This document shows, one piece after another, positions 15,711 to 34,145 of a stretch of DNA of 36,914 nt. Position numbers and translations under genes: made by a program. The stretch is from a virus: positions 1 through 36,914 of IMG/VR virus record IMGVR_UViG_3300005264_000020; one strand, written 5' to 3'. Position 1 is the stretch's first letter, and each line of letters begins with the position of its first letter. The notes under the pieces were generated by a model. It searched no databases. It saw nothing but the letters and a program-made list of their open reading frames with translations, and was not told the origin of the DNA.

Positions 15711-15760
15711 AAAATAACAAAATGGGACATTAAATTAATAATGTCCCATTTTGTTATTTT
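15711..15760. terminator. Bidirectional terminator, 22-bp perfect stem
   Basis: 15711-15732 is exactly complementary to 15739-15760 with a 6-base loop. The stem carries ATGGGACAT in its centre and A/T-rich ends (AAAATAACAAAA and its complement), giving U-rich tails on both strands. It separates the + strand remnants from the minus-strand genes ending at 15962. Confidence 0.8.
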
Positions 15761-16486: not shown

Positions 16487-17241
16487 ACTGTTAATTTTTC
16501 AATGCTTGTTATATAATTTGGTGGTATATTTTCTAATGTGAATATTCCATTTGGTGTATTTACATCTTTCATAAATCTAATATTTTTAATATATTTGGTT
16601 TCTATATCTATAACGGATATTTCTGTTTCTTTGGGGTATAATAATTTAGCAAGTATATTTATTTGCTTTGTGTCTAATATGAAATAAACTCGATTATTGT
16701 GTTGTGTTATTTTATTTTTCGATTTTGGGATTAATCCATATTTTTCGATTTTATCAACATTGATTGTTTTTGTGATGTGGTAAATATGCTTAGGCAATTT
16801 GTCAATTAATAAATCAAATTTTGGTTCAAACTGTAATGTTACCATATTTGAATTTAATTTAGTTATATCAAAATTGAGAGTATTTAACATTTTACCTTTG
16901 TCTTCTGAATAATATAATATATTTGATATGAACCAACCTAAATTATTCATTAATTGTATGATGTCGTTATACAAATGCTGTTTAAATGCAAATGGTGTTA
17001 AATTTACATTAAGAATATCATTACTCTGTTTGTATAATTTGATATTACCGTTAAACTTTTTATTGAAATATATAAACACACTACTAATTGGTTGGGTTGT
17101 AATTAAACCTTCATATAATTTATTTTGTGTGTTTTTATTTTTGTGGTGGAGTATGAGAGCATTACTATAACCATTTAAACTAGGTGTTTTGATTAATTCG
17201 TCTTTAACAAATTTATTTATTATTTTTGATAACTTATCCAT
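16483..17241 (-). CDS. ADP-ribosyltransferase-fold-like protein, first gene of the pair
   Basis: 252 residues. The N-terminal 145 residues are unfamiliar. The C-terminal part has IYHIT (His155), EKYGLIPKS (167-174), RVYFILD (184-190) and GIFTLENIPPNYI (232-244). This Y-H-x-T, GLxPKS, RVYF order resembles ART/KptA-like folds with H-Y-E type landmarks and many uncharacterised phage proteins. NAD use is inference; E237 is a candidate final acid. Operon with the R-S-E type gene downstream, sharing an ATGA overlap. The start faces the + strand promoter region at 17270. Confidence 0.45.
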   Translation of the reverse strand: MDKLSKIINKFVKDELIKTPSLNGYSNALILHHKNKNTQNKLYEGLITTQPISSVFIYFNKKFNGNIKLYKQSNDILNVNLTPFAFKQHLYNDIIQLMNNLGWFISNILYYSEDKGKMLNTLNFDITKLNSNMVTLQFEPKFDLLIDKLPKHIYHITKTINVDKIEKYGLIPKSKNKITQHNNRVYFILDTKQINILAKLLYPKETEISVIDIETKYIKNIRFMKDVNTPNGIFTLENIPPNYITSIEKLTV

Positions 17242-17269
17242 TCTATTTTTAATTATAAATATAATATAA

Positions 17270-17301
17270 TTTGGTTTGTAAAAATATTATGTGTACTTTT
17301 G
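17270..17301 (+). promoter_or_regulatory. Bacteroidota-type promoter
   Basis: TTTG at 17270-17273, a 20-base spacer and TACTTTTG at 17294-17301 match the consensus. The 17242-17374 gap also holds a possible 14-residue ORF at 17325-17369, too short to support. Confidence 0.65.
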
Positions 17302-17374
17302 TAAAAAAAGAAAAACTTATCAAAATGACAAACGAAATTTTTCAAGGATTTAGAAACGATTTAAAATAATAAAA

Positions 17375-17545
17375 ATGAAAAAACTAACTAACTATTTAAT
17401 TACGTGGGTATCAATTTTTTTAATTATATGTGAACTTACATATATTCAAGACACCGATAATTTCCAATTTACAACAAGTGGAATATTGATAGCAGCATTC
17501 TTTTCAACAATAAATACATTAATTTTTAAATACATAAAAATCTAA
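17375..17545 (+). CDS. Small two-span membrane protein
   Basis: 56 residues: MKKLTNYLITWVSIFLIICEL forms the first span, a polar stretch (TYIQDTDNFQFTTS) follows, and GILIAAFFSTINTLIFKYIKI the second. First substantial gene behind the 17270 promoter. Function unknown. Confidence 0.55.
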   Translation: MKKLTNYLITWVSIFLIICELTYIQDTDNFQFTTSGILIAAFFSTINTLIFKYIKI

Positions 17546-17549
17546 AATT

Positions 17550-17942
17550 ATGTCAAAAGCATTTCGTTTTATGATAATAAGAATAGTAGTTATTCTAGCT
17601 ATAATAGGAAGTTCTCCTGTTCGATTTATCAATTGTGTGTTTATGTCATTTTCTAATGCATTTTACACTAAAAATGACAAGGCATATGATATAATGCTAT
17701 GGCTGGTTAATAGAATTGATTATCCTATTTGCTACACAAATAAAGAGCCAAATATTATGTATTCATTTTTTGGATTATCATATAATGTGTATGACCATAA
17801 AGATGACCATACAAAAATGTTATTTCTCCACATGAGAAACAGTAATAAAAAACATGAACGTGTTGGAATAAGAAAAGCAAATAATAAACTCAGATATTAC
17901 TTTTATTTAACTCTTAACAAATACAAGATTATAGATAATTAG
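17550..17942 (+). CDS. Membrane-anchored hypothetical protein
   Basis: 130 residues. An N-terminal basic-hydrophobic segment (FRFMIIRIVVILAIIGSS, about residues 5-22) is a signal anchor. The remainder is soluble with several Tyr/His/Cys residues and a basic C terminus. No family recognised. It is the last ordinary phage gene before the cassette-like segment. Confidence 0.6.
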   Translation: MSKAFRFMIIRIVVILAIIGSSPVRFINCVFMSFSNAFYTKNDKAYDIMLWLVNRIDYPICYTNKEPNIMYSFFGLSYNVYDHKDDHTKMLFLHMRNSNKKHERVGIRKANNKLRYYFYLTLNKYKIIDN

Positions 17943-17985
17943 TAACAATTAAAAATAAATGAAATTAAAGCAAATGTTATGAGTA
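17939..17985 (+). other. Left junction of the cassette-like array (site A)
   Basis: GTTATGAGTA at 17976-17985 is the first copy of the core repeated at 18528 and, in variant form, at 18986. Its left partner is weak: only TTAGTAAC at 17939-17946 could pair with it, so this may be an insertion point rather than a full attC-like site. TGAGTA/TACTCA at 17980-17996 can also form a small hairpin. Confidence 0.4.
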
Positions 17986-18029
17986 TTTTCTTACTCAAAT
18001 GTTAAAATATATTAAATTGCGTATACAGA

Positions 18030-18061
18030 TTTGCACGTTTAATTTATTTAACGTATATTTG
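18030..18061 (+). promoter_or_regulatory. Promoter inside the first cassette
   Basis: TTTG at 18030-18033, a 20-base spacer and TATATTTG at 18054-18061, a full consensus match, 41 bases before the start at 18103. Its presence means the first cassette brings its own transcription, which among integron cassettes is typical of toxin-antitoxin or regulator cassettes. Confidence 0.65.
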
Positions 18062-18102
18062 TAGTATAGAAATTTAGTTATACACATTTAAAAATAAATA
18101 TC

Positions 18103-18250
18103 ATGAACGAGTTGGCGGACAAAAACATTTACATCCAGAGAAGTAAGTGAATTACTTTCAGAATTATATGATGAATTGCAAGAGAAAAAAACAAACTACT
18201 CCTGCTTGGAGGATTTTGAAACTCAGAACGGTGTAAGAAATGAAAAATAA
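18103..18250 (+). pseudogene. Small regulator-like gene with a one-base insertion
   Basis: The start MNELADK is followed within 8 codons by a stop in the wrong frame. Removing one A from the A5 run just after codon 6 restores a 48-residue protein: MNELADKTFTSREVSELLSE, then LYDELQEKKTNYS and a stop at 18248-18250. The TSREVSELL segment looks like a helix-turn-helix or small DNA-binding helix pair. The lesion is in a homopolymer, so a sequencing error is possible. Confidence 0.5.
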
Positions 18251-18360
18251 TAAATAAAAGCGAATTAGCCCGACAAATCGGGCTTTCTCGCACTTCTGTT
18301 GAAAATAAATCGAAGAAAATCAATTATAATAAGTTTTCAGAAGATGAAGAAAAAAACTAA
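18244..18360 (+). pseudogene. Helix-turn-helix fragment
   Basis: 38 codons without a start encode INKSELARQIGLSRTSVENK followed by a Lys-rich tail and a stop at 18358-18360. SELARQIGLSRTSV is a clear Cro/CI-type helix-turn-helix core. It lies in a different frame from the 18103 gene and overlaps it slightly; a one-base change would let the ATG at 18241 region feed into it. Probably the remnant of a phage or antitoxin-type repressor. Confidence 0.45.
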
Positions 18361-18427
18361 AAAAAGTTATGTTGAGGCTTGCAAAAGAGATAATGCAAGA
18401 TTACTCTTAACGGTTAACTGCTATTGA
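18344..18427 (+). CDS. Possible 27-residue basic peptide
   Basis: ATG at 18344 opens a Lys-rich 27-residue frame (MKKKTKKSYVEACKRDNARL and a short tail) that ends inside the closing site of the first cassette. Too short for confidence; such overlap of a cassette ORF with its attC site is common in integrons. Confidence 0.25.
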   Translation: MKKKTKKSYVEACKRDNARLLLTVNCY

Positions 18428-18535
18428 AACGTTACGTTTAACAGCGTAACTTTTAAAAGTAGTACACCTTATCAAAACAGAATTAAACACGCATTACTGA
18501 CTAACTAGTAATGTTTTCAAATCAAATGTTATGAG
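18402..18535 (+). other. attC-like site B, closing the first cassette
   Basis: The left end TTACTCTTAACG followed by GCTATTGA (18401-18428) matches the left end of site C (TTACTCATAACG and GCTATTGA) almost base for base. The right end is GTTATGAG at 18528-18535. TTGAAA at 18424-18429 pairs with TTTCAA at 18515-18520. The terminal region holds two small hairpins, 18427-18431/18435-18439 and CATTACT/AGTAATG at about 18491-18512. Overall pairing is weaker than in site C. Confidence 0.45.
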
Positions 18536-18584
18536 TTTTATATTCATCTCATTTGCAAATATTAACTTTTAAATAATTATCAAA

Positions 18585-18908
18585 ATGAAAATCAAGCAAG
18601 AAGTAAATAAATGTGAAGAATGTCAATTTAGAAAAGAATTTTATTGCACAAAAGATGGGCATAGCATATCCGATGCAGTAGTAAACAGCAAAATCTCTCA
18701 AAACTGCCCTTTTAATAAAAAGAAAAGAAAAGTTAAAGCTATTGATAGAGTTACAACTGACAGACTTCAAATGGTGTTAAGAATGGCTGGGATTGAATTA
18801 CCTTTTAGTTTAATTGATAACGTTATTGATTTAGTTGAATTAATAGAAGATAAGGGGGGTAACGTATCTTTAAAAGATATTGAAAATTTAAAATCTGAGT
18901 GGCAATAG
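18585..18908 (+). CDS. Cys-rich small protein, cargo of the second cassette
   Basis: 107 residues. An N-terminal Cys cluster (CEECQFRKEFYC, then NCPF) spans residues 10-45 and probably binds zinc. After a Lys/Arg linker (NKKKRKVKAIDRV) comes a helical domain (about 60-107) with LPFSLIDNVIDLVELIED. Cytosolic. No family recognised. The stop at 18906-18908 directly precedes site C. Codon choice is less A/T-biased than in the phage genes around it. Confidence 0.65.
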   Translation: MKIKQEVNKCEECQFRKEFYCTKDGHSISDAVVNSKISQNCPFNKKKRKVKAIDRVTTDRLQMVLRMAGIELPFSLIDNVIDLVELIEDKGGNVSLKDIENLKSEWQ

Positions 18909-18996
18909 TTACTCATAACGAATACGGCTATTGAGGCGTTTAATTTTTTTTATTTTCTAAAAAATTAAATGACTTCAAAGCCGCTGTTATAGCTAT
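18909..18996 (+). other. attC-like site C, closing the second cassette
   Basis: A long imperfect inverted repeat with the attC plan. ATAAC 18915-18919 pairs with GTTAT 18986-18990 (outer R arms). An unpaired spacer follows (5 bases left, 2 right). CGGCT 18925-18929 pairs with AGCCG 18979-18983 and TTGA 18931-18934 with TCAA 18975-18978 (L arms), leaving A18930 as a single extrahelical base. An 11-bp A/T stem, 18939-18949 with 18959-18969, forms the variable tip. The R-spacer-L order and lone bulged base are hallmarks of integron recombination sites. The RRRY part of the R core is not conserved. Confidence 0.6.
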
Positions 18997-19023
18997 CTTT
19001 TAATTATCATTTATAAATCAATC

Positions 19024-19782
19024 ATGAATAAAAAATATTTTAAGGCATTTATCAGAACTGTAAAAACAATTGATGTAGAAACCAGAGGGGATGATTTAGA
19101 ACATTCCAATATCATTCGGGAACCATTAATTTTAGCCTCTGATAAAAAAGAAGTAAAAGCAATCCTTTTAGAAAAATATCCTCAATTTTTTCAGAAAAAT
19201 AAGGTATATGAAAAAGGGACAAAAGATAATGCACAATTCTTTTATGTCGTTATATTTGAGCTGTATAACCATGAAAAACAACTAATAGAAGAGGGTGGAT
19301 GGCGATGTAATGAATGTGGACAAATACATAAAAATAAATACGAATATAAACCAATGATTAATGAAAAATTATTTGGGGCAGATAAATTATTTTGCGGATT
19401 TGATTGTTTTGAAAAATATAAACAAAAACATTTTAAAGATTTAACTATGTTTGAGGGCGAAAATTATTATGTAAAAAAAGAAAGCCCAAATTACATTTAC
19501 AAAATTACTGAAAAATTAACAAATAGATGTTATATAGGAAAAACAAGGAACGAACCGTTTTTTCGATGGTGGAACCACCTTTCAAAAAGTAGCTCTCCGT
19601 TTGGTTTATATTTAAGAAAAACAAAATTAAGTGAATGGACTTTTGAAGTAATCGAAGTTTTGCCATCTAATATTGAAGATAAACAGGTTTTTGAAATCGA
19701 GAGTAAATACATAGTTGAATTTGATGCTATCAATAACGGTTTTAATGCTTTAATTAGCAACAAATCGGCTGTATTGAATTAG
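19024..19782 (+). CDS. Zinc-ribbon plus GIY-YIG nuclease-like protein, cargo of the third cassette
   Basis: 252 residues in two parts. Residues 1-130 form an unfamiliar alpha/beta domain with a CxxC...CxxxC zinc site (Cys95, 98, 124, 128; WRCNECGQIH and FCGFDCF). Residues 155-245 are a GIY-YIG nuclease domain: YIYKIT 157-162, CYIGKT 169-174, Arg181 in FFRWWNHL, Glu224/226 in FEIESKYI and NNGFNAL at 237-243. GIY-YIG enzymes cut DNA as homing, restriction or repair nucleases. Whether this one acts in defence, inter-phage competition or element mobility is unknown. It is the largest cassette cargo. Confidence 0.75.
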   Translation: MNKKYFKAFIRTVKTIDVETRGDDLEHSNIIREPLILASDKKEVKAILLEKYPQFFQKNKVYEKGTKDNAQFFYVVIFELYNHEKQLIEEGGWRCNECGQIHKNKYEYKPMINEKLFGADKLFCGFDCFEKYKQKHFKDLTMFEGENYYVKKESPNYIYKITEKLTNRCYIGKTRNEPFFRWWNHLSKSSSPFGLYLRKTKLSEWTFEVIEVLPSNIEDKQVFEIESKYIVEFDAINNGFNALISNKSAVLN

Positions 19783-19821
19783 CTATAACGTAATGCTTGG
19801 AGCACCTAATTGCTACTATTA
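19779..19821 (+). other. Right junction of the cassette-like array (site D, half site)
   Basis: TTAGCTATAACG at 19779-19790 overlaps the stop of the 19024 gene and is the complement of the third unit's start (GTTATAGCTA at 18986). The matching right half cannot be recognised: phage coding sequence resumes by 19821. The site is either truncated or its right arm has decayed. Confidence 0.4.
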
Positions 19822-20087
19822 TGGTTGAAAGTATCTACATATTAATTGGTTATCCACAATATGAATTTGTTAATAAAATTTGCTATCGAAAAGCTTATAT
19901 GACAAATTCAAAATCATGTAAATATCAATACCGTAAAAGAAGAAAAATAAAAATAAGCAAAAAAGGTAAAAACAATGAAGTTAAATTGGGCTATTGGTTG
20001 TATCGTGGTAAGACTAGAAAGTTTATACCATTAACCAAATTGCATCACCGTCTTAAAAAATTAAAACATGAAAATGGATATATTTGA
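19821..20087 (+). CDS. Small basic hypothetical protein
   Basis: 88 residues from ATG 19821 (MVESIYILIGYPQYEF), very basic (SKSCKYQYRKRRKIKISKK at about 33-51) with an aromatic WLYRGKTRKFIPL segment. Nucleic-acid binding is plausible. The frame is open upstream to 19797 only through a TTG inside the cassette junction, so the ATG is preferred. Overlaps the next gene by 20 bases. If the cassettes were inserted here, the original 5' context of this gene has been replaced. Confidence 0.6.
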   Translation: MVESIYILIGYPQYEFVNKICYRKAYMTNSKSCKYQYRKRRKIKISKKGKNNEVKLGYWLYRGKTRKFIPLTKLHHRLKKLKHENGYI

Positions 20088-21078
20088 TTATAATATTAAT
20101 GAATTTAAAGTTATACCTACCAATAAACAAATATTAGAAGTAATTGGTAAAGCTGGGTTATTAGAACAGCGAATAACTGAGGGTGAAATATTAACTGTTG
20201 AAAATAGTGATATAGCATTTCATGCTAATAAAATCATTAAGAACTTAGATAAATCTGAATTAGGTAATATTTTACATTCAAGCCCTTATGATACATCAAA
20301 AAAATGGAAACCTAAACCAATTAAAATGATGTATTTAATTACAAAGCAAATAAATGATAATGTAATTAAAATGCTTAAACAACCAATCCCACGATTTTTA
20401 GCTGTGAGTATTACTGGGTTAGGTGGTACTGACATAGAACCAAACGTTCCATCATACCAAGAAACATTTGTTGCATTATATAAATTGGTACAAAGTGGTT
20501 TTGATGTGAATGATTTAGTAATTAGAATAGACCCACTATATCCATGAATTAATACACCTGATGTAAACTATGATTTATTAAATACTATTATAAAGGCATG
20601 TCATACATTAGGAGTAACGCAGATTTATACAAGTGTGTTTGATATTTATAAGAACACACCAAATAAAATGTTATCTAAATTGAATTTGAGTGTATATCAA
20701 AATAATGGTATTAAAATTGAAAATGCCATTCATGCGAATGAACCATATTTAAAACAAACGTTTGATGAAGTGGATGAAATGATATTTAATATAAGCAATG
20801 GAAACATTCAACATATTTTGTGTGGGGAAATTTCTTCGGTATTTCCAACTCATGCAATTAAAGTGGGATGTTTGAATGAAAAGCGAATAGAGCAAACATT
20901 ACAAACTAATGTGGTAGGAATTAAAGATAGAAAAATAGGAGATAATAATGTCCAGCGAAGTAATTGTTTGTGTGTAATAACAGATAAAGGTAAAAAGGTT
21001 AAACGCCAAGCATTAACACATAATGATAAATGTGGACATAGTTGTATTGGGTGCTATATTCACAATAACACTAATTAA
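20068..21078 (+). pseudogene. DUF1848/SplB-like Fe-S protein interrupted by an in-frame TGA
   Basis: One continuous frame of 336 codons with a single TGA at 20545-20547. The first part ends SITGLGGTDIEPNVP (115-129) and RIDPLYP; the second runs on as INTPDVNYDLL to a C-terminal CGHSCIGCY (Cx3Cx2C). The order TGxGGTxxEPNVP, GF, RIDPxxP, then Cx3Cx2C matches DUF1848 and related SplB-like proteins that bind a [4Fe-4S] cluster at the triad. After the stop the sequence keeps its coding character, so the lesion is recent, a base error, or recoding. GGA (Gly) or TGG (Trp) to TGA are one-base explanations. Alone, neither half would be complete. Confidence 0.6.
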
Positions 21079-26886: not shown

Positions 26887-27151
26887 TTTAGGTTCAAAAA
26901 TATATACTGTTGTCGAAAAAGAATTTGATGATAATAAGCAAGGTAGTTGTTATCCAGAGTTAGGGAGAATATTTATTGCAAATAAACTGAATGGCATTGA
27001 CATACCGACAACATCTAAACAACAAACATTATATCACGAATTAATACATGTGGTATTACATGAATTAGGTTATTTTGATTTAAGTAGAAATGAACAATTA
27101 GTTCAACAAATTGCTATATTGTTACATCAATTTGAAACCACAAAACAATAA
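26870..27151 (+). CDS. HEXXH putative zinc metallopeptidase-like protein
   Basis: 93 residues. TLYHELIHVVLHELG puts HELIH at 56-60 with further H64/E65, followed by RNEQLVQQIAILLHQ where E79 could be the third zinc ligand. The arrangement recalls ImmA/IrrE (M78) or SprT-like minimal peptidase folds found in phages. Peptidase activity is inferred. It overlaps the methyltransferase start by one base. Confidence 0.65.
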   Translation: MTKTFNLGSKIYTVVEKEFDDNKQGSCYPELGRIFIANKLNGIDIPTTSKQQTLYHELIHVVLHELGYFDLSRNEQLVQQIAILLHQFETTKQ

Positions 27152-28106
27152 TGGAAATACTAAATATATTAAGTCTTTTCGATGGAATGAGTTGTGGTCA
27201 AATAGCATTAGGTAGAAGTGGTATTACATATCAAAATTATTATGCAAGTGAAATTGATAAACATGCTATTAAGGTAACACAACATAATTACCCAAATACA
27301 ATTCAAATTGGTGATGTATCTAAAGTTAGTTATAAAAACGGAATATTGACTACTGATCATGGTAGTTATGATGTAGGTAAAATAGACTTATTAATTGGTG
27401 GTAGCCCTTGTACTGGTTTTAGTTCTGCTGGTAAAGGTTTGAATTTTGAAGACCCAAGAAGTAAGTTGTTTTTTGAATATGTGCGAATTAAAAATGAAAT
27501 AAATCCTAAATACTTTTTACTTGAAAATGTAAGAATGAAACAGGAATATCAAGATATTATAACTAAATATATGGGTGTAAACCCAGTCATGATAAATAGT
27601 TCATTAGTTTCGGCACAAAACAGGGTTCGTAATTATTGGGTCAACTTTGAAATAACACAACCAAAGGATAAAGGGATGAAATTAAGTGATATATTAGATG
27701 ATGGTGTTTACATAAACCCAAGTGCAATTCGGGGTAGGATGTTAAACAAAGCAACTATTGTTGGTAGGAGGTTAAACGAACAAGGAAAACGGCAGGATTA
27801 TGATAAAACAGTTCCAATAACACAATGTTTAGAAGTACGAAAGAAAAATAGAGATAAAAGTAATTGTTTAACTACGGTTGCAAAAGATAATGTATTAACT
27901 TATATGGTGTAGGTAGATACCCAAACGCATATAAAGATAAATTACCATTTCGTAATTATTCAATTGCTGAGTATTGTAGATTACAAACAGTACCAGAACA
28001 TTATTTTGATGGTGTTGCAAGTGATAATCAAATAAGAAAAATGATTGGTAATGGTTGGACAGTTGATGTTATAGTTGACATACTAATACAAATGAAAAAT
28101 GAATAA
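27151..28106 (+). pseudogene. DNMT3-like C5-cytosine methyltransferase, frameshifted near its C terminus
   Basis: From 27151 the frame holds motif I (LSLFDGMSCGQIAL 7-20), motif IV GGSPCTGFS with catalytic Cys87, and motif VI (LLENVRM), then stops at 27912 after LTYMV. One frame over, from about 27905 to 28106, the missing C-terminal motifs continue: NYSIAEYCRLQTVPEHYFDG and MIGNGWTVDVIVDIL. The total of 956 bases is one short of a multiple of three, so a single-base deletion near 27890-27910 explains it. If real, motifs IX-X are lost and the enzyme is probably dead. Tandem paralogue of the next gene. Confidence 0.7.
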
Positions 28107-29019
28107 TATGAATGAAAATACAGAAATAAATGTTTTAAGTCTATTTGATGGTATGAGTTGTGGGCAAATTGCCCTTGATAAATTAAACATAAACGTAGGA
28201 AACTATTATGCAAGTGAAATAGATAAAAACGCCATTAAAGTTACACAATCGAATTTTCCAAATACAAATCAAATTGGTTCGATTGTTGATGTTAATGTGT
28301 CAGATTTACCAAAAATTGATTTATTAATTGGTGGTAGTAGTTGTCAAAACTTTTCACTAGCAGGTAATAAAAAAGGAATGGTAACAGTTAATAACATTGA
28401 AGTTACTACATTGCAACAATATTTAACATTAAAAAATGATGGGTTTGAATTTAGTGGTGAAAGTTATTTGTTTTGGGAATATATTAGAATATTAAAAGAA
28501 AGCAAACCTAAATATTTTTTACTTGAAAATGTTATGATGGGCAAAAATTGGCGTGACATCATAACTGATGCCGTGGGTGTTGAACCAATTATGATAAATA
28601 GCAATTTATTAAGCATTCAAAACCGAAAGCGGTTATATTGGACAAACATAACCAACATAACACAACCAACAAATAATCACAAATTATTAAGAGATTATTA
28701 TAGTAAAACTTATGATGATAAATTAGTATTGCGTGGTAAGGGTTTAAATAAACTAAATAGACCCCGCAATAGAGCAATTGACATTTTAAGTGATAAATCC
28801 CCAACCTTAATGAAGGCACAGGAAAATAAACCAACCGATTCTATTGTGTTTAAACATGGTTCAATATATAGATACCCAACCCGTGGTGAAATGGAATTGA
28901 TGCAAACAGTACCAAATGGTTATACTAATGCAGTTAATTGTAGAATTGCAAGTGGTTTGTTAGGTAATGGTTGGACAGTTGATGTTATTGTGCACATTTT
29001 TAAAAATATGGAAATATGA
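28099..29019 (+). CDS. DNMT3-like C5-cytosine DNA methyltransferase
   Basis: 306 residues, full set of motifs: LSLFDGMSCGQIAL (13-26), GGSSCQNFS with candidate catalytic Cys82, LLENVMM, INSNLLSIQNRKRLYW and the C-terminal MQTVPNGY/LGNGWTVDVIV. The usual Pro before the catalytic Cys (SPC) is Ser here (SSC), which could lower or alter activity. The architecture without a large variable region matches small DNMT3-like phage and Bacteroidota enzymes. It starts inside the end of its paralogue (8-base overlap) and overlaps the next gene by 4 bases. Target site unknown. Confidence 0.85.
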   Translation: MNNMNENTEINVLSLFDGMSCGQIALDKLNINVGNYYASEIDKNAIKVTQSNFPNTNQIGSIVDVNVSDLPKIDLLIGGSSCQNFSLAGNKKGMVTVNNIEVTTLQQYLTLKNDGFEFSGESYLFWEYIRILKESKPKYFLLENVMMGKNWRDIITDAVGVEPIMINSNLLSIQNRKRLYWTNITNITQPTNNHKLLRDYYSKTYDDKLVLRGKGLNKLNRPRNRAIDILSDKSPTLMKAQENKPTDSIVFKHGSIYRYPTRGEMELMQTVPNGYTNAVNCRIASGLLGNGWTVDVIVHIFKNMEI

Positions 29020-29567: not shown

Positions 29568-30989
29568 ATGTATCAAAATGCTTATTACGACACTTACAAT
29601 AAAATGGTTCATGTGTGGGATGACCAACATGGACACCAAAAAATAGAATATGAACGTTATGCTTATGCTAAAGATGATGAAGGTGAATATACTTCATTGT
29701 ATGGCGATAAATTATCAAAGATAACTAAATTTGATGGTATAGACGAAACAACATTATTTGAATCTGACATTAAACCAATAGATAGGACATTAATTGATTT
29801 ATACATTAATTCAGATGAAGTGAGTAAGAATCATCGTATTTTCTTCTTTGACATTGAAACCAATACAAAGGGTGGAATTTCTGAGCCAGAAGATGCTTGG
29901 CAACCTATTACTTCAATTGCATATTTTATTGATGGTAAAATAAAATGTGTTATTTTAGACAATAAAAATAGATTAAAATTCATAAAGAAAAAGTATAAAG
30001 AATATGATACTGTAATCATACCATTTACTACTGAGTATGATATGCTTGATGAATTTATAAAAGATTGGGTTAAAGTTCGACCAACGATAATTACTCATTG
30101 GAAAGGTGATTCATTTGATGTTCCATATTTAATTAATAGAATATCAAATGTTTTTAATGATACAAAAACTAAGCTATTAAGCCCAATTGGTAAAGTGCAT
30201 TATAATAGATATAAGAAACTTTGGGTTATCGCTGGTGTTAGTAGTTTAGATTATATGAAACTATATAAAAATTTCACTTATACTGGAAAACCATCTTACG
30301 GACTAGATGCTATCTGTACTTCTGAAATTGGTCGTGGGAAAGTAAAATATTCAGGTAACTTAGACGATTTAATGAGACTTGATATAAATAAGTTCATTGA
30401 ATATAACATTGAAGACGTATTATTGATGGTTGACTTAGATGCTAAATTAAAACTGATTGAATTAGCACAAGCAATTTGCCATAAAGGGCATGTAATATAT
30501 GAAGATGTGTATGCAAACAGTAGAACTTTGGATGGTGCAAGTATTGTACATTTAAACAAGAATAATATAATTGCACCTAATAAATTACCAAAATACACTT
30601 TACAATTAAAACGAAAACATAATATTGGTGAGCAACGTATATACGTAACAAATGTAATTGATAAGAATAGAATACCATCAAAAGGTAGTTTACAATTTAA
30701 GAAATCTAAAACAGCTAAAATACATGCTAAATATATTCAGTTTGAACATAACTATTTTATTTTAGAAACACCATTGAAAAAAACATTACTTGTTGAATAT
30801 CCAATGAAAGTTGAATTGATGGGTGCATTTGTGGATTTAACTGAACCTGGGTTATTTGAATGGGTTGGGTCGGAGGACTTAGTAAGTCTTTATCCAAAAA
30901 TAATTGAAACTCAAAACATTAGTCCTGAAACAAAACTTGGTCGTATAACAAATTGGTCTGAAATAACTCCAATGAAAGACCATCGCTAA
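29568..30989 (+). CDS. Family B DNA polymerase, N-terminal part (T4 gp43-like)
   Basis: 473 residues. The 3'-5' proofreading exonuclease is complete: Exo I FDIET (94-98), Exo II around HWKGDSFDVPY (Asp184) and Exo III YNIEDVLL (Asp283). The start of the polymerase domain follows, with motif A EDLVSLYPKII at 436-446 (Asp437) and NISPET as in T4 gp43. The protein then ends after NWSEITPMKDHR. Palm motifs B and C lie in the separate ORF at 32310, beyond an endonuclease gene. The two halves must associate to form an active replicase; fragmentation at this kind of place is known in T4-like phages. Confidence 0.9.
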   Translation: MYQNAYYDTYNKMVHVWDDQHGHQKIEYERYAYAKDDEGEYTSLYGDKLSKITKFDGIDETTLFESDIKPIDRTLIDLYINSDEVSKNHRIFFFDIETNTKGGISEPEDAWQPITSIAYFIDGKIKCVILDNKNRLKFIKKKYKEYDTVIIPFTTEYDMLDEFIKDWVKVRPTIITHWKGDSFDVPYLINRISNVFNDTKTKLLSPIGKVHYNRYKKLWVIAGVSSLDYMKLYKNFTYTGKPSYGLDAICTSEIGRGKVKYSGNLDDLMRLDINKFIEYNIEDVLLMVDLDAKLKLIELAQAICHKGHVIYEDVYANSRTLDGASIVHLNKNNIIAPNKLPKYTLQLKRKHNIGEQRIYVTNVIDKNRIPSKGSLQFKKSKTAKIHAKYIQFEHNYFILETPLKKTLLVEYPMKVELMGAFVDLTEPGLFEWVGSEDLVSLYPKIIETQNISPETKLGRITNWSEITPMKDHR

Positions 30990-31059: not shown

Positions 31060-32313
31060 ATGGAATTTTATTCATACACAACAAAAACCGAAAACGAAAA
31101 ATGTTTAATTACAAACATAAAAAAGGAACAATGTTACAACCGCAAAGGTAAACCTCAATATAAATTATTGATAGATTATTATTATGATTATTTTGAAACT
31201 GTGTTATATCCTGAATACTTTGATAATAAAAGAAACCGTATTTTACAGTTTAAGTATAAATGCTTTATAAATGAGATAATAATTCATGGTGGTAATTTAG
31301 ATTTAGTCAATAAAGAATATGTAGAAAAATATCACTTTGAATATAATAACCTACATGTTAATTATTTCACACGAAAAAATGGTGGAGACATTAAAAAGGG
31401 AACACAAGCATTTAATGATAGACAATCAACAACATCAAAACAAAGTTTTATAAAACGTTATGGTAAAGAGGAAGGTGAAGAAAAATTTAAAAAGCATTTT
31501 AAACATATACATGATTCAACCAGTGGTGATAAGCATTGGACAAGGAATCTTGATACTACCATGAAAGAACATATTATGAAATTGCATAATATAACAGAAA
31601 AAGAAGCTAATAATTATTTTAATCATTACAACGCATGGAAGTGTGATGGTATGACGGATAGAGAAATATATGAGCGGAGGCGAGACACAGGAATTTATGC
31701 TCAGACTTTTTATACGCCAGAGATGCGTGAACATTGGCATAAAAAAATGACAATTGTAATTGAGCAAATGAAGCAAAGTGGTGATTATCACAAAAAATTT
31801 GGATGTTGGAAAGCATGTTATAATTATGCAATAGATAATAATCTTGATTATACAGATGAAACTAGAATTGATATTTGGCACATTTTATTTAATGGTAGTG
31901 ATGTTAGACATTGGTTACGAAAAGGATTTTCACAAATTGAATCACAGCAAAGAATAAAACAAAATAAACGGTCTTCAAAACAATCTGATGATGCATTGAT
32001 GGAAATAGAAGATAAATTAAACGTAACCATTACATTTGAAAAACGGATTGATAGATATTTTTGTGATGGTGTAATAGAAAATAGTAAAATAGCAATTGAA
32101 TATAATGGTGATTATTGGCACATGAACCCAACACAGTATAAAGAGAATGATATACACAAAACAACAAAATTATTGGCTAAAGATGTTTGGAAACACGATG
32201 AAAATAAAAGAAACATAATATCAGAACATGGTTATATACCATTTATAATCTGGGAGTATGATTGGAATAATAATAAAGAAGAAATAATAAACCAATTAAA
32301 ACAATTAATATGA
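31060..32313 (+). CDS. Free-standing homing endonuclease, Vsr/EDxHD type
   Basis: 417 residues. A mid-protein SFIKRYGKEEGEEKFKKHF segment (about 129-147) is a hallmark of phage EDxHD homing endonucleases. The C-terminal nuclease core has RIDRYFCDG (Asp331), IEYNGDYWH (Glu347 to His354), DVWKHDENK (375-383) and FIIWEYDW (about 394-401), the Vsr-like PD-(D/E)xK pattern. The gene sits exactly between the two polymerase halves and its stop overlaps the second half's start (ATGA). No intron-like sequence remains around it, so it is an inserted gene, not an intron ORF. It probably cuts intact polB of competing phages, spreading itself; that is inference. Confidence 0.82.
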   Translation: MEFYSYTTKTENEKCLITNIKKEQCYNRKGKPQYKLLIDYYYDYFETVLYPEYFDNKRNRILQFKYKCFINEIIIHGGNLDLVNKEYVEKYHFEYNNLHVNYFTRKNGGDIKKGTQAFNDRQSTTSKQSFIKRYGKEEGEEKFKKHFKHIHDSTSGDKHWTRNLDTTMKEHIMKLHNITEKEANNYFNHYNAWKCDGMTDREIYERRRDTGIYAQTFYTPEMREHWHKKMTIVIEQMKQSGDYHKKFGCWKACYNYAIDNNLDYTDETRIDIWHILFNGSDVRHWLRKGFSQIESQQRIKQNKRSSKQSDDALMEIEDKLNVTITFEKRIDRYFCDGVIENSKIAIEYNGDYWHMNPTQYKENDIHKTTKLLAKDVWKHDENKRNIISEHGYIPFIIWEYDWNNNKEEIINQLKQLI

Positions 32314-34145
32314 ACAATTTCGATTTCATATCAAAAGACCAAATAATAACAATTGATTTGGTTGATAGTACGGAAGTAATAAATTTAAGTAAAACTGAAT
32401 TTGTTGAATTTGCCAATGAAAATAATATTACAATTGCATCTAATGGTGTTATGTATTCTACAAAAAAAGAAGGTTTTATCCCACATTTATTGGCTAAGTG
32501 GTATAAAGAACGTAAAGAATATAAAGACCTAATGAAAAAATACAAAAAAGAAAACAATGACGAATTAACTCAATTATACCACACAAAACAATTAACACAA
32601 AAAGTATTACTAAATAGTTTTTATGGTGTAATGGCACTTTCAGCGTTTAGATTTTATGATATGGATAACGCAGAAGCCATAACATCAACAGGTCAAGATG
32701 TTATTAAGTTTTCACGTGAGGTAATGAATAGAAAATTCAATGATAAAAATGTAAACAACTCATTCACAGTTACTTACACGGACACAGACTCAATTGCAAA
32801 GGAAAGTATGTTACGTGTAGGTAATAGTCAAATATCAATACATGATTTATTTGAAGGATATGCAACTAAAAATGGTATTGATATTAGTGATATAACTGGT
32901 CGTGAGTTTATTTTCCCAAAAGACTTACAGTTACCATATTATGATGATAACAAAGTATTGTTAGATGATGTTCACTACATAGAACGACATTACACTACAA
33001 AAGATATGTATGAAATAGAAACCTCAGATGGTAGAAAGATTATTGTTACGGAAGACCATTCATGTGTCATTTTAAATGATATAGGTGAAATAGTAGAAAA
33101 AACTCCACTGGAAATGAATGAAGTTGATGTTGTGGTAACAATCAAAGATAGTAATCTAAAATACCACAAAACAAACGTAAAAAAAATAACTAAATTAGGC
33201 AAACAAACAGATTATGTTTATGATATTGGGATGAGAGGTGGTAATCATACATTTTTCGCAAATGACATTTTAGTTCATAATAGTTTTTATTTCAAACTTG
33301 GCAATGTAACTGATAAAACAGACACTGTTAATTTAGTGAAAACAATTAAAACTGTTGATGATTATGTCAATGAAAAGCTCATACATTTCAGTAAGACGGT
33401 GTTAAATTCCGATAATAATAAACTAGTGTTCAAACCCGAAAAGATAAATTACACATCATTTAACATAGCAAAGAAGCGTTATGCAATGTGTAGTGTTTGG
33501 GATGAGGGTTATACTTATGATGAAGAAGGAACAAAACAAGCTGATAGGATTTATGATATAAATGGTAAATTTTTAGGTAAATTAATTGTAACTGGATTAG
33601 ACATAATTAGAAGTGATTTTCCACCTTCTTTTAAGGAATTTATGACAACATTAATTAAGCGAATATTGGCTAAATTTCCCAAAAGTAATATAGATGATTT
33701 TTTATTAGGGTTTAAAATCAATTTATCAAAAATAAAATTAATGGATTTAATGTTTCCAAGTGGGATTGGTGATATTGATAAATACAATGAAAATAGAGTT
33801 AGGTTTAAAATTAAAAGTGGCACACCAATACATGTAAAATCAAGTTTATATTATAATGATTTATTGGATAAGTTTAATCTTAATGAAGTAGAAAAGATAA
33901 AAAATGCAAGTAAAATAAAATGGTGTTATTTAAAAGAAAATCCATATAAATTACCATCATTAGCAATAAAATCAAGTGATGATAATCCAGAAATGATAGT
34001 TGATTATGTTACTAAATATATAGATCATGAAAAAATGTTTAATGGTAAATTAGAAAAGAAAATACAAAGTTTTTATGATGCGTTAAAATGGGGGTTAATG
34101 CCTGATAAATATACTAAACAAATAAATAAATTATTTAAGTTTTAA
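32310..34145 (+). CDS. Family B DNA polymerase, C-terminal part with mini-intein
   Basis: 611 residues. Motif B KQLTQKVLLNSFYG (93-106) and motif C TYTDTD (155-160), catalytic Asp158 and Asp160, lie on either side of typical fingers and palm sequence. The host protein resumes after the intein as SFYFKLGN at 325, restoring TYTDTDSFYF. Thumb landmarks such as AKKRYAM follow near 390. Residues 1-55 fill the gap after motif A. It starts on an ATGA overlap with the endonuclease gene. An active polymerase needs both protein splicing and association with the 29568 product. Confidence 0.9.
   Translation: MNNFDFISKDQIITIDLVDSTEVINLSKTEFVEFANENNITIASNGVMYSTKKEGFIPHLLAKWYKERKEYKDLMKKYKKENNDELTQLYHTKQLTQKVLLNSFYGVMALSAFRFYDMDNAEAITSTGQDVIKFSREVMNRKFNDKNVNNSFTVTYTDTDSIAKESMLRVGNSQISIHDLFEGYATKNGIDISDITGREFIFPKDLQLPYYDDNKVLLDDVHYIERHYTTKDMYEIETSDGRKIIVTEDHSCVILNDIGEIVEKTPLEMNEVDVVVTIKDSNLKYHKTNVKKITKLGKQTDYVYDIGMRGGNHTFFANDILVHNSFYFKLGNVTDKTDTVNLVKTIKTVDDYVNEKLIHFSKTVLNSDNNKLVFKPEKINYTSFNIAKKRYAMCSVWDEGYTYDEEGTKQADRIYDINGKFLGKLIVTGLDIIRSDFPPSFKEFMTTLIKRILAKFPKSNIDDFLLGFKINLSKIKLMDLMFPSGIGDIDKYNENRVRFKIKSGTPIHVKSSLYYNDLLDKFNLNEVEKIKNASKIKWCYLKENPYKLPSLAIKSSDDNPEMIVDYVTKYIDHEKMFNGKLEKKIQSFYDALKWGLMPDKYTKQINKLFKF
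32790..33281 (+). mobile_element. Mini-intein in polB motif C
   Basis: 164 residues (161-324 of the 32310 product). It starts with the nucleophile Ser161 (SIAKES), contains the block B-like TEDHS (247-251), the block F-like DYVYDIGMRGGNHTFFAN and ends ILVHN at block G, with Ser325 as +1 residue. No homing-endonuclease domain (blocks C-E, H) is present, so it cannot move by itself. The site, directly after the second catalytic Asp, is the classic pol-c position. Ser at position 1 and at +1 is a less common but known combination. Confidence 0.88.

Follow-up and report, generated by a model that had tools for sequence, protein, structure and literature searches.

What kind of element is the hairpin at positions 18909–18996 (site C) of this virus record, which the original prediction described as folding exactly like an attC site? 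Read directly from the window, i.e. the whole stretch of DNA analysed (36,914 bases, 26% G+C), site C has the architecture that had been predicted: outer arms ATAAC (18915–18919) and GTTAT (18986–18990), inner arms CGGCT (18925–18929) with AGCCG (18979–18983) and TTGA (18931–18934) with TCAA (18975–18978), an unpaired, extrahelical A at 18930, and an 11-bp terminal stem of A/T pairs. The core after GTT reads ATAG and not RRRY, also as predicted. Folded as DNA, the + strand of 18909–18996 gave a z-score of −4.45, with 0 of 200 shuffles as stable. Structure prediction of the bottom strand, which had been proposed as a check, gave −3.24, again with 0 of 200 shuffles as stable, and a wider − strand stretch around the site gave −2.60 (2 of 200). 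The hairpin beats shuffles on both strands, the + strand more strongly.

Site C also stands out within the window. An attC-like scan of the + strand anchored on AAC/GTT ranked it first among 17 candidates; rank 2 went to a short hairpin with AATAAC/GTTATT arms at 15718–15753, outside the array described below. In a stricter TAACG...TGTTA scan of both window strands, it was the sole match scoring at least 30 (score 38), and dinucleotide-preserving shuffles of the whole window yielded no such match (0/100). Both flanks of site C have 9-nt complements (upstream GTTATGAGT, downstream AGCTATAAC); as the window contains nine pairs of GTT-anchored 9-mers with a downstream complement, such pairs alone are not rare, and the weight therefore rests on the combination of features. 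An Rfam search returned sub-threshold microRNA families only.

Site C lies in a small array, with the following features:

17976–17985, + strand: R' core GTTATGAGTA, left end of unit U1 and right half of the apparently decayed site A (pairs at 9/10 positions with TACTCTTAAC at 18402–18411)
18402–18411, + strand: R'' core TACTCTTAAC, right end of U1; expected exchange point after 18411 (polarity inferred from Muminvirus)
18412–18527, + strand: site B hairpin (TAAC|G ... T|GTTA), attC-like (scanner match; model R1, 61.6 bits over 18404–18537, filters off)
18528–18536, + strand: R' core GTTATGAGT, complementary to the U2 end at 18911–18919 (core-pairing search)
18585–18908, + strand: U2 cassette ORF, 107 aa, without known family (ORF list, Pfam, PHROGs)
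18911–18919, + strand: R'' core ACTCATAAC, right end of U2; expected exchange point after 18919 (core pairing; polarity from Muminvirus)
18920–18985, + strand: site C hairpin, with spacer GAATA, inner stem with extrahelical A at 18930, A/T terminal stem and spacer CT (direct reading, scan, folding, R1 21.0 bits)
18986–18995, + strand: R' core GTTATAGCTA, complementary to the U3 end at 19780–19789 (core-pairing search)
19024–19782, + strand: U3 cassette ORF, 252 aa, with a C-terminal GIY-YIG nuclease domain (PF01541, 4.1e-05; PHROG homing-endonuclease matches)
19780–19789, + strand: R'' core TAGCTATAAC, right end of U3 (core-pairing search)
19790–19815, + strand: probable left-arm remnant of a fourth site, GTAATGCTTGGAGCACC... 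(direct reading)

Units U2 (18412–18919) and U3 (18920–19789) each consist of a hairpin followed by an ORF, and their ends pair within the cassette (GTTATGAGT with ACTCATAAC in U2, GTTATAGCTA with TAGCTATAAC in U3). The cores agree inside each of these two units, yet differ from unit to unit, which is the trace expected of a circular cassette. The end cores of U1 (17976–18411) pair at 9/10 positions, and this unit has no intact ORF; 17986–18411 holds broken reading frames only, one of which resembles part of a small helix-turn-helix protein. A repeat (D9) links the 17976–17985 region with 18510–18562. The R1 search found no complete hairpin to the left of 17976–17985, no right arm of a fourth site was found beyond 19789, and the array looks eroded, with sites A and D decayed. 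For the U2 ORF, Pfam gave no match above the curated cut-off, PHROGs gave none that was convincing, and the two collections scanned contain no relative. The window proteins have no PF00589 match, its + strand carries no TAACTAYWAT boundary motif, and no attI-type site is seen at the array end.

Do similar sites exist elsewhere? The U3 ORF has eight viral relatives and two in genomes, one of which (L015) is probably identical to viral record L013. One relative (L007, 58% identical) is located inside a cassette array with similar sites and within-unit pairing, as judged by eye. L007 pointed to Flavobacterium phages, with matches in 86 phage records; four of the Flavobacterium phage arrays (L041, L044, L045 and L046) hold about 10–15 sites each, on a single strand, and the scanner detected TAAC|G...T|GTTA hairpins in the Polaribacter phage P12002L. 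Several candidates were discarded. A Tenacibaculum GIY-YIG locus (L014) was rejected as an array, as R1 finds no site beside the gene. The exact site-C-like pattern occurs in five stretches of viral contigs, none of which has the TAACG core in place; these were treated as chance, and those in L001 and L005 fall in coding region. A search with CAAAACCGATGTTA in 299 Flavobacteriaceae genomes hit 21 genomes, roughly the level of the reversed control, and was uninformative.

In an alignment of 22 sites (A2), including site B and excluding site C, TAACG and GTTA do not vary and covariation is strong. Paired cells amount to 91.5% versus 68.6% after shuffling, and double-change cells to 105 versus a shuffled mean of 36.1, with slid versions of the alignment not close. 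A lack of compensatory changes in homologous sites had been named as an outcome that would speak against the attC reading; many such changes are present in A2. Model R1, made from A2, gave 53 matches in 23 sources with default filters, and at these settings recovered neither site B nor site C in the window. With filters off over 17200–20200, site C was matched over the full model length at 21.0 bits (E = 0.0065 for 3,001 bases), and the third match scored 13.8 bits. The 61.6 bits of site B are not independent, as it is one of the 22 sites from which R1 was built, and the 21 bits of site C are far under the 46–112 bits typical of most phage sites.

Viral contigs contain at least 120 stretches that match the canonical site pattern, and one that matches the reversed pattern. 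Of 80 viral loci listed, 79 contain a site detected by the scanner, and 64 contain at least two. In these loci, 152 of 184 adjacent pairs showed within-unit pairing, with at least 6 of 8 positions matching (control, 3/184), and the ORF is on the site strand in 138 units, on the opposite strand in 5 and missing in 18, a count that leaves out 23 poorly matching pairs. In the related arrays, a set pooling phage and chromosomal arrays of which some share cassettes, the match reaches at least 6 of 8 positions in 41/58 adjacent pairs, versus 5/70 for the same hairpin, 0/49 for the next-but-one and 5/58 for the previous one. R1 also has matches with an E-value (rough for this model) of 0.01 or better in 92 of 120 Flavobacteriaceae genomes. 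The matches form one-strand clusters (102 matches in 20 stretches, mixed strands in none), and adjacent chromosomal sites show within-unit pairing at 7 or more of 9 positions in 32/45 cases (controls 3/99 and 3/64), which argues that the clusters are real cassette arrays. The phage cassette ORFs are inverted relative to these chromosomal arrays of similar sites: of 57 chromosomal intervals, 52 have their longest ORF on the strand opposite to the site, 3 have it on the site strand and 2 have none, whereas in phage intervals it lies on the site strand in 35/35 and opposite in 0, the phage loci in this count sharing cassettes.

Movement of such cassettes can be seen in Muminvirus phages. Over the 10 kb compared, mumin6-1 and mumin6-4 differ solely by one 506-bp cassette, with two aligned blocks each 99.9% identical and both cassette ends at TAACGTT. 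The longer phage has the junctions GGTTAAC|GTTTGGTGG and GCATAAC|GTTATCAGG, the shorter phage GGTTAAC|GTTATCAGG. These junctions suggest that the mobile unit is a hairpin plus the ORF on its right, cut to the left of the hairpin. Between snusmum6-1 and snusmum9-1, an extra methyltransferase cassette in the former adjoins the fixed boundary TAAC|TACAATATT, in which five Flavobacterium phage arrays end; this is as expected for insertion at an attI-like end. When mumin6-1 is compared with snusmum6-1, and snusmum6-1 with snusmum9-1, 9 of 12 inner block boundaries fall at TAAC| (one of them loosely) and 3 of 12 elsewhere in the hairpin. Such stray boundaries would fit cassette changes by homologous or illegitimate recombination between similar repeats, in phages whose sites no longer serve, or never served, a site-specific recombinase. 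Clusters of attC without an integrase (CALINs) in virulent phages, e.g. P12002L, are described by Qi et al. (2023; PMC9892861), who in section 3.4 propose off-target or illegitimate recombination for the gain of clusters by phages, and no recombinase was found in the window or in five Flavobacterium phage genomes with arrays that were searched whole. We nevertheless regard this explanation as unlikely: the clean mumin junction has only ~7 nt in common, unit ends remain paired within units although repeat-driven exchange would scramble them, other viral records have recombinases at array ends, and, according to the same paper, IntI1 recombined five of six phage attC sites tested and was active on P12002L attC2 (PMC9892861).

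The recombinases beside arrays were found in both viruses and chromosomes. PF00589 is matched in 12 of 50 viral array records; in the other 38 no recombinase was detected, many of the records being fragments. Ten viral regions were fetched: in six (L214–L219) the array is followed on its right by a 266–298-aa recombinase encoded on the array strand, and the motif filter returned none in L220–L223, despite the PF00589 match in those records. About 50–60 bases before the recombinase gene, five of the six (L214–L218) have TAAC|TAYTATAT, in place of which L219 has TAAC|GTGTAT. Searched with the integron-integrase model, ten chromosomal array genomes have best matches that include a piece of at least 96 bits in nine cases and of 71 bits in the tenth (G118); the model cut-off is exceeded in 0/10. 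The matching gene is just to the right of the array, on the cassette-ORF strand, in G104, G017, G090, G116, G072, G107 and G071. Flavobacteriaceae chromosomes (L062–L081) hold large integron-like arrays in which the cores are CAACG/TGTTG or TAACG/TGTTA and beside which 357–402-aa XerA-like recombinases lie. Geofilum rhodophaeum (G003) has integron-integrase-like halves in unusually long frames of 491 and 737 aa (C1:639580-640377 and C2:149700-150488).

XerA is the best family for nine chromosomal recombinases, in which the middle of the integron model stays unaligned, and likewise for the viral recombinases of the fetched regions. The array-linked enzymes thus resemble XerA tyrosine recombinases (PDB 5hxy, 4a8e), with NCBIfam NF040815 (XerA-like) as the top family for the 15 scanned, at 173–226 bits. 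They differ from XerA in that the family cut-off of 220 bits is reached by 3/15, and in ~100 extra N-terminal residues in the chromosomal enzymes (5/9 scanned), a segment with no Pfam match in these five. They miss the cut-off of TIGR02249 and leave its positions ~178–239 unaligned; when the L210 recombinase is aligned to VchIntIA (2a3v), ~48 residues are missing, which are taken to be the integron-specific insertion. TIGR02249 alone was rejected as a discriminator from Xer, as all 14 control genomes match it, and we therefore rely on the position beside arrays and on the missing insertion. From these data we infer that XerA-like enzymes may catalyze cassette exchange, which fits the earlier guess of a divergent integrase.

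These findings make it quite probable that a Bacteroidota phage carries a small integron-like array here, in which site C is the attC-like recombination site between two cassettes, with exchange by a tyrosine recombinase at TAAC|G; the sequence evidence covers structure, unit-end pairing, covariation, the presence or absence of one cassette, and recombinases next to arrays. Each unit would be a hairpin followed by an ORF. When the ORF-sense strand becomes single-stranded in vivo, the hairpin would fold, its outer TAAC/GTTA arms and bulged inner stem would form the binding site, a tyrosine recombinase would exchange strands at TAAC|G, and the cassette would enter or leave as a circle with two paired ends. 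In this virus family, the recombinase would be the short XerA-like enzyme at an attI-like TAAC|TAYTATAT boundary. As the window has neither recombinase nor boundary, its cassettes would need help in trans; the array would be a site cluster without integrase that, if its sites are active, may use a recombinase from elsewhere in the genome, from the host or from a co-infecting phage. The most likely exchange point at site C is TAAC|G to the left of the hairpin, after 18919, so that the hairpin would travel with the GIY-YIG gene. Two parts of the original prediction have to be revised accordingly in polarity. The circular unit junction, proposed to join 18528 with 18986, probably joins 18411/18412 with 18919/18920 (TAAC|G), as the hairpin of related phages moves with the right-hand ORF; and the recombining form, proposed to be the folded bottom strand, is expected to be the ORF-sense + strand, given the side of the cut.

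Could the hairpin instead be an RNA element, i.e. a terminator of the 107-aa ORF or a 5' leader of the GIY-YIG gene, with the array-like appearance incidental? The hairpins of phage arrays sit between co-directional ORFs and would thus be in mRNA, and stable folding on both strands is compatible with such a role. A terminator had also been named beforehand as the competing outcome; site C lacks the G+C stem and T run of a Rho-independent terminator, and the one terminator-like site in 17200–20200 is on the opposite strand, at 18267–18284. Moreover, unit ends hundreds of bases apart covary outside the hairpin, which leader folding does not explain, and in Muminvirus the hairpin is gained or lost together with its ORF, making an RNA element improbable. 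That U3 is simply a mobile GIY-YIG endonuclease gene which brought about its own insertion, with the hairpins on either side as its target or debris, is very improbable: U3 does match homing-endonuclease families and R1 finds no site in the other loci with U3 relatives (L006, L008–L015), yet U2 has the same kind of ends without an endonuclease, similar phage cassettes carry mainly other genes, and the 506-bp Muminvirus cassette is a U2-type unit already seen to move without a linked endonuclease.

How close, then, is the recombination site proposed here to attC? Integron attC sites and superintegrons feature an imperfect hairpin built of outer and inner arms, cores of the AACG/GTT type, paired cassette ends and long one-strand chromosomal arrays, and in classical attC the folded bottom strand carries its extrahelical bases in L''. 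The present sites share the folded hairpin, the AACG/GTT cores, the pairing of unit ends and the one-strand chromosomal arrays. Site C itself has this form, its imperfect inverted repeat folding within one strand into outer R and inner L stems, and cassette ends pair within the unit in U2, U3 and related arrays. In contrast to integron attC, the R' core is GTTA or GTTG without RRRY, and the bulge would be on the other arm. At site C, the R'/R'' boxes read GTTATAG and TCATAAC instead of the consensus GTTRRRY/RYYYAAC, and the unpaired A at 18930 is on the 5' arm of the + strand, opposite to the classical G if the + strand recombines. The system further differs from integrons in that the linked recombinase lacks the IntI insertion, no intI with that insertion being found, and in that the phage ORFs are inverted relative to the sites. 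The claim of a fold exactly like attC thus holds for an attC-type folded recombination site between cassettes and is too strong as regards the R' box and, probably, the bulged arm. Since the R-box consensus and the IntI insertion are lacking, we do not count site C among the classical attC sites that belong to IntI integrons; 'attC-like', within an integron-like system, is the more fitting name.

At least one example of this integron-like system is already to be found among the phage CALINs that Qi et al. describe (PMC9892861). They are alike in site type, in having no integrase described and in methyltransferase cargo; the window array differs from the P12002L CALIN in that it is in a different phage, with more decayed sites and other cargo. 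The portions of that text available describe no XerA-like array recombinases, boundary motif, within-unit pairing or ORF inversion. In the literature searched, which did not extend to subscription journals and preprints, Qi et al. (2023) is the sole paper on phage attC arrays, and none deals with similar Flavobacteriaceae arrays. Of 106 distinct sense-strand cassette ORFs, 22 match N6/N4 DNA methylases, 2 C5 methylases and 2 Dam, and the majority have no family. A connection between methyltransferase content and the plating efficiency of Flavobacterium phages is drawn by Nilsson et al. (2020; PMC7077304), who report that those LMO9 phages with poor plating on LMO6 are without a specific methyltransferase present in the others; the terms 'integron' and 'cassette' do not occur in the main text. 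Methyltransferases being cassette cargo in Flavobacterium phages, cassette exchange offers a mechanism for their fast change.

We lean towards a broader reading as well, in which Bacteroidota phages would have their own integron lineage, with attI-like ends, a XerA-like recombinase without the IntI insertion, inverted ORFs read with phage transcription, cassettes shared with hosts and swapping of methyltransferases, and in which the window would be a decaying, recombinase-less outpost in a divergent phage with T4-like replication genes. Such a widespread system would let these phages trade genes, e.g. those for DNA methyltransferases. The usual view is that integrons are devices of bacteria and are run by IntI; Smyshlyaev et al. 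call its extra insertion essential for integrons to function, yet not completely conserved within its subgroup (PMC8138268). Arrays apparently run by insertion-less recombinases, in phages and Flavobacteriaceae chromosomes, would widen this definition and provide a simple system for testing the need for the insertion.

The window phage probably infects a Bacteroidota host, given the relatives of its sites and of the GIY-YIG gene. No relatives were found of the genes flanking the array, and consequently no empty-site relative of the phage. Pfam and PHROGs assign to the window a family-B DNA polymerase with an intein and a T4-type clamp loader. The polymerase is apparently split over three ORFs (29568–30989, 31060–32313 and 32310–34145), the second with a weak MTES_1575 nuclease match and the third with DNA_pol_B and intein-splicing matches. 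Weak matches of two other ORFs (20068–20547 and 20635–21078) to consecutive parts of DUF1848 look like one split or frameshifted gene, and the adjacent, similar ORFs 27151–27912 and 28099–29019, with direct repeats D2, D3 and others, resemble duplicated cytosine DNA methylases.
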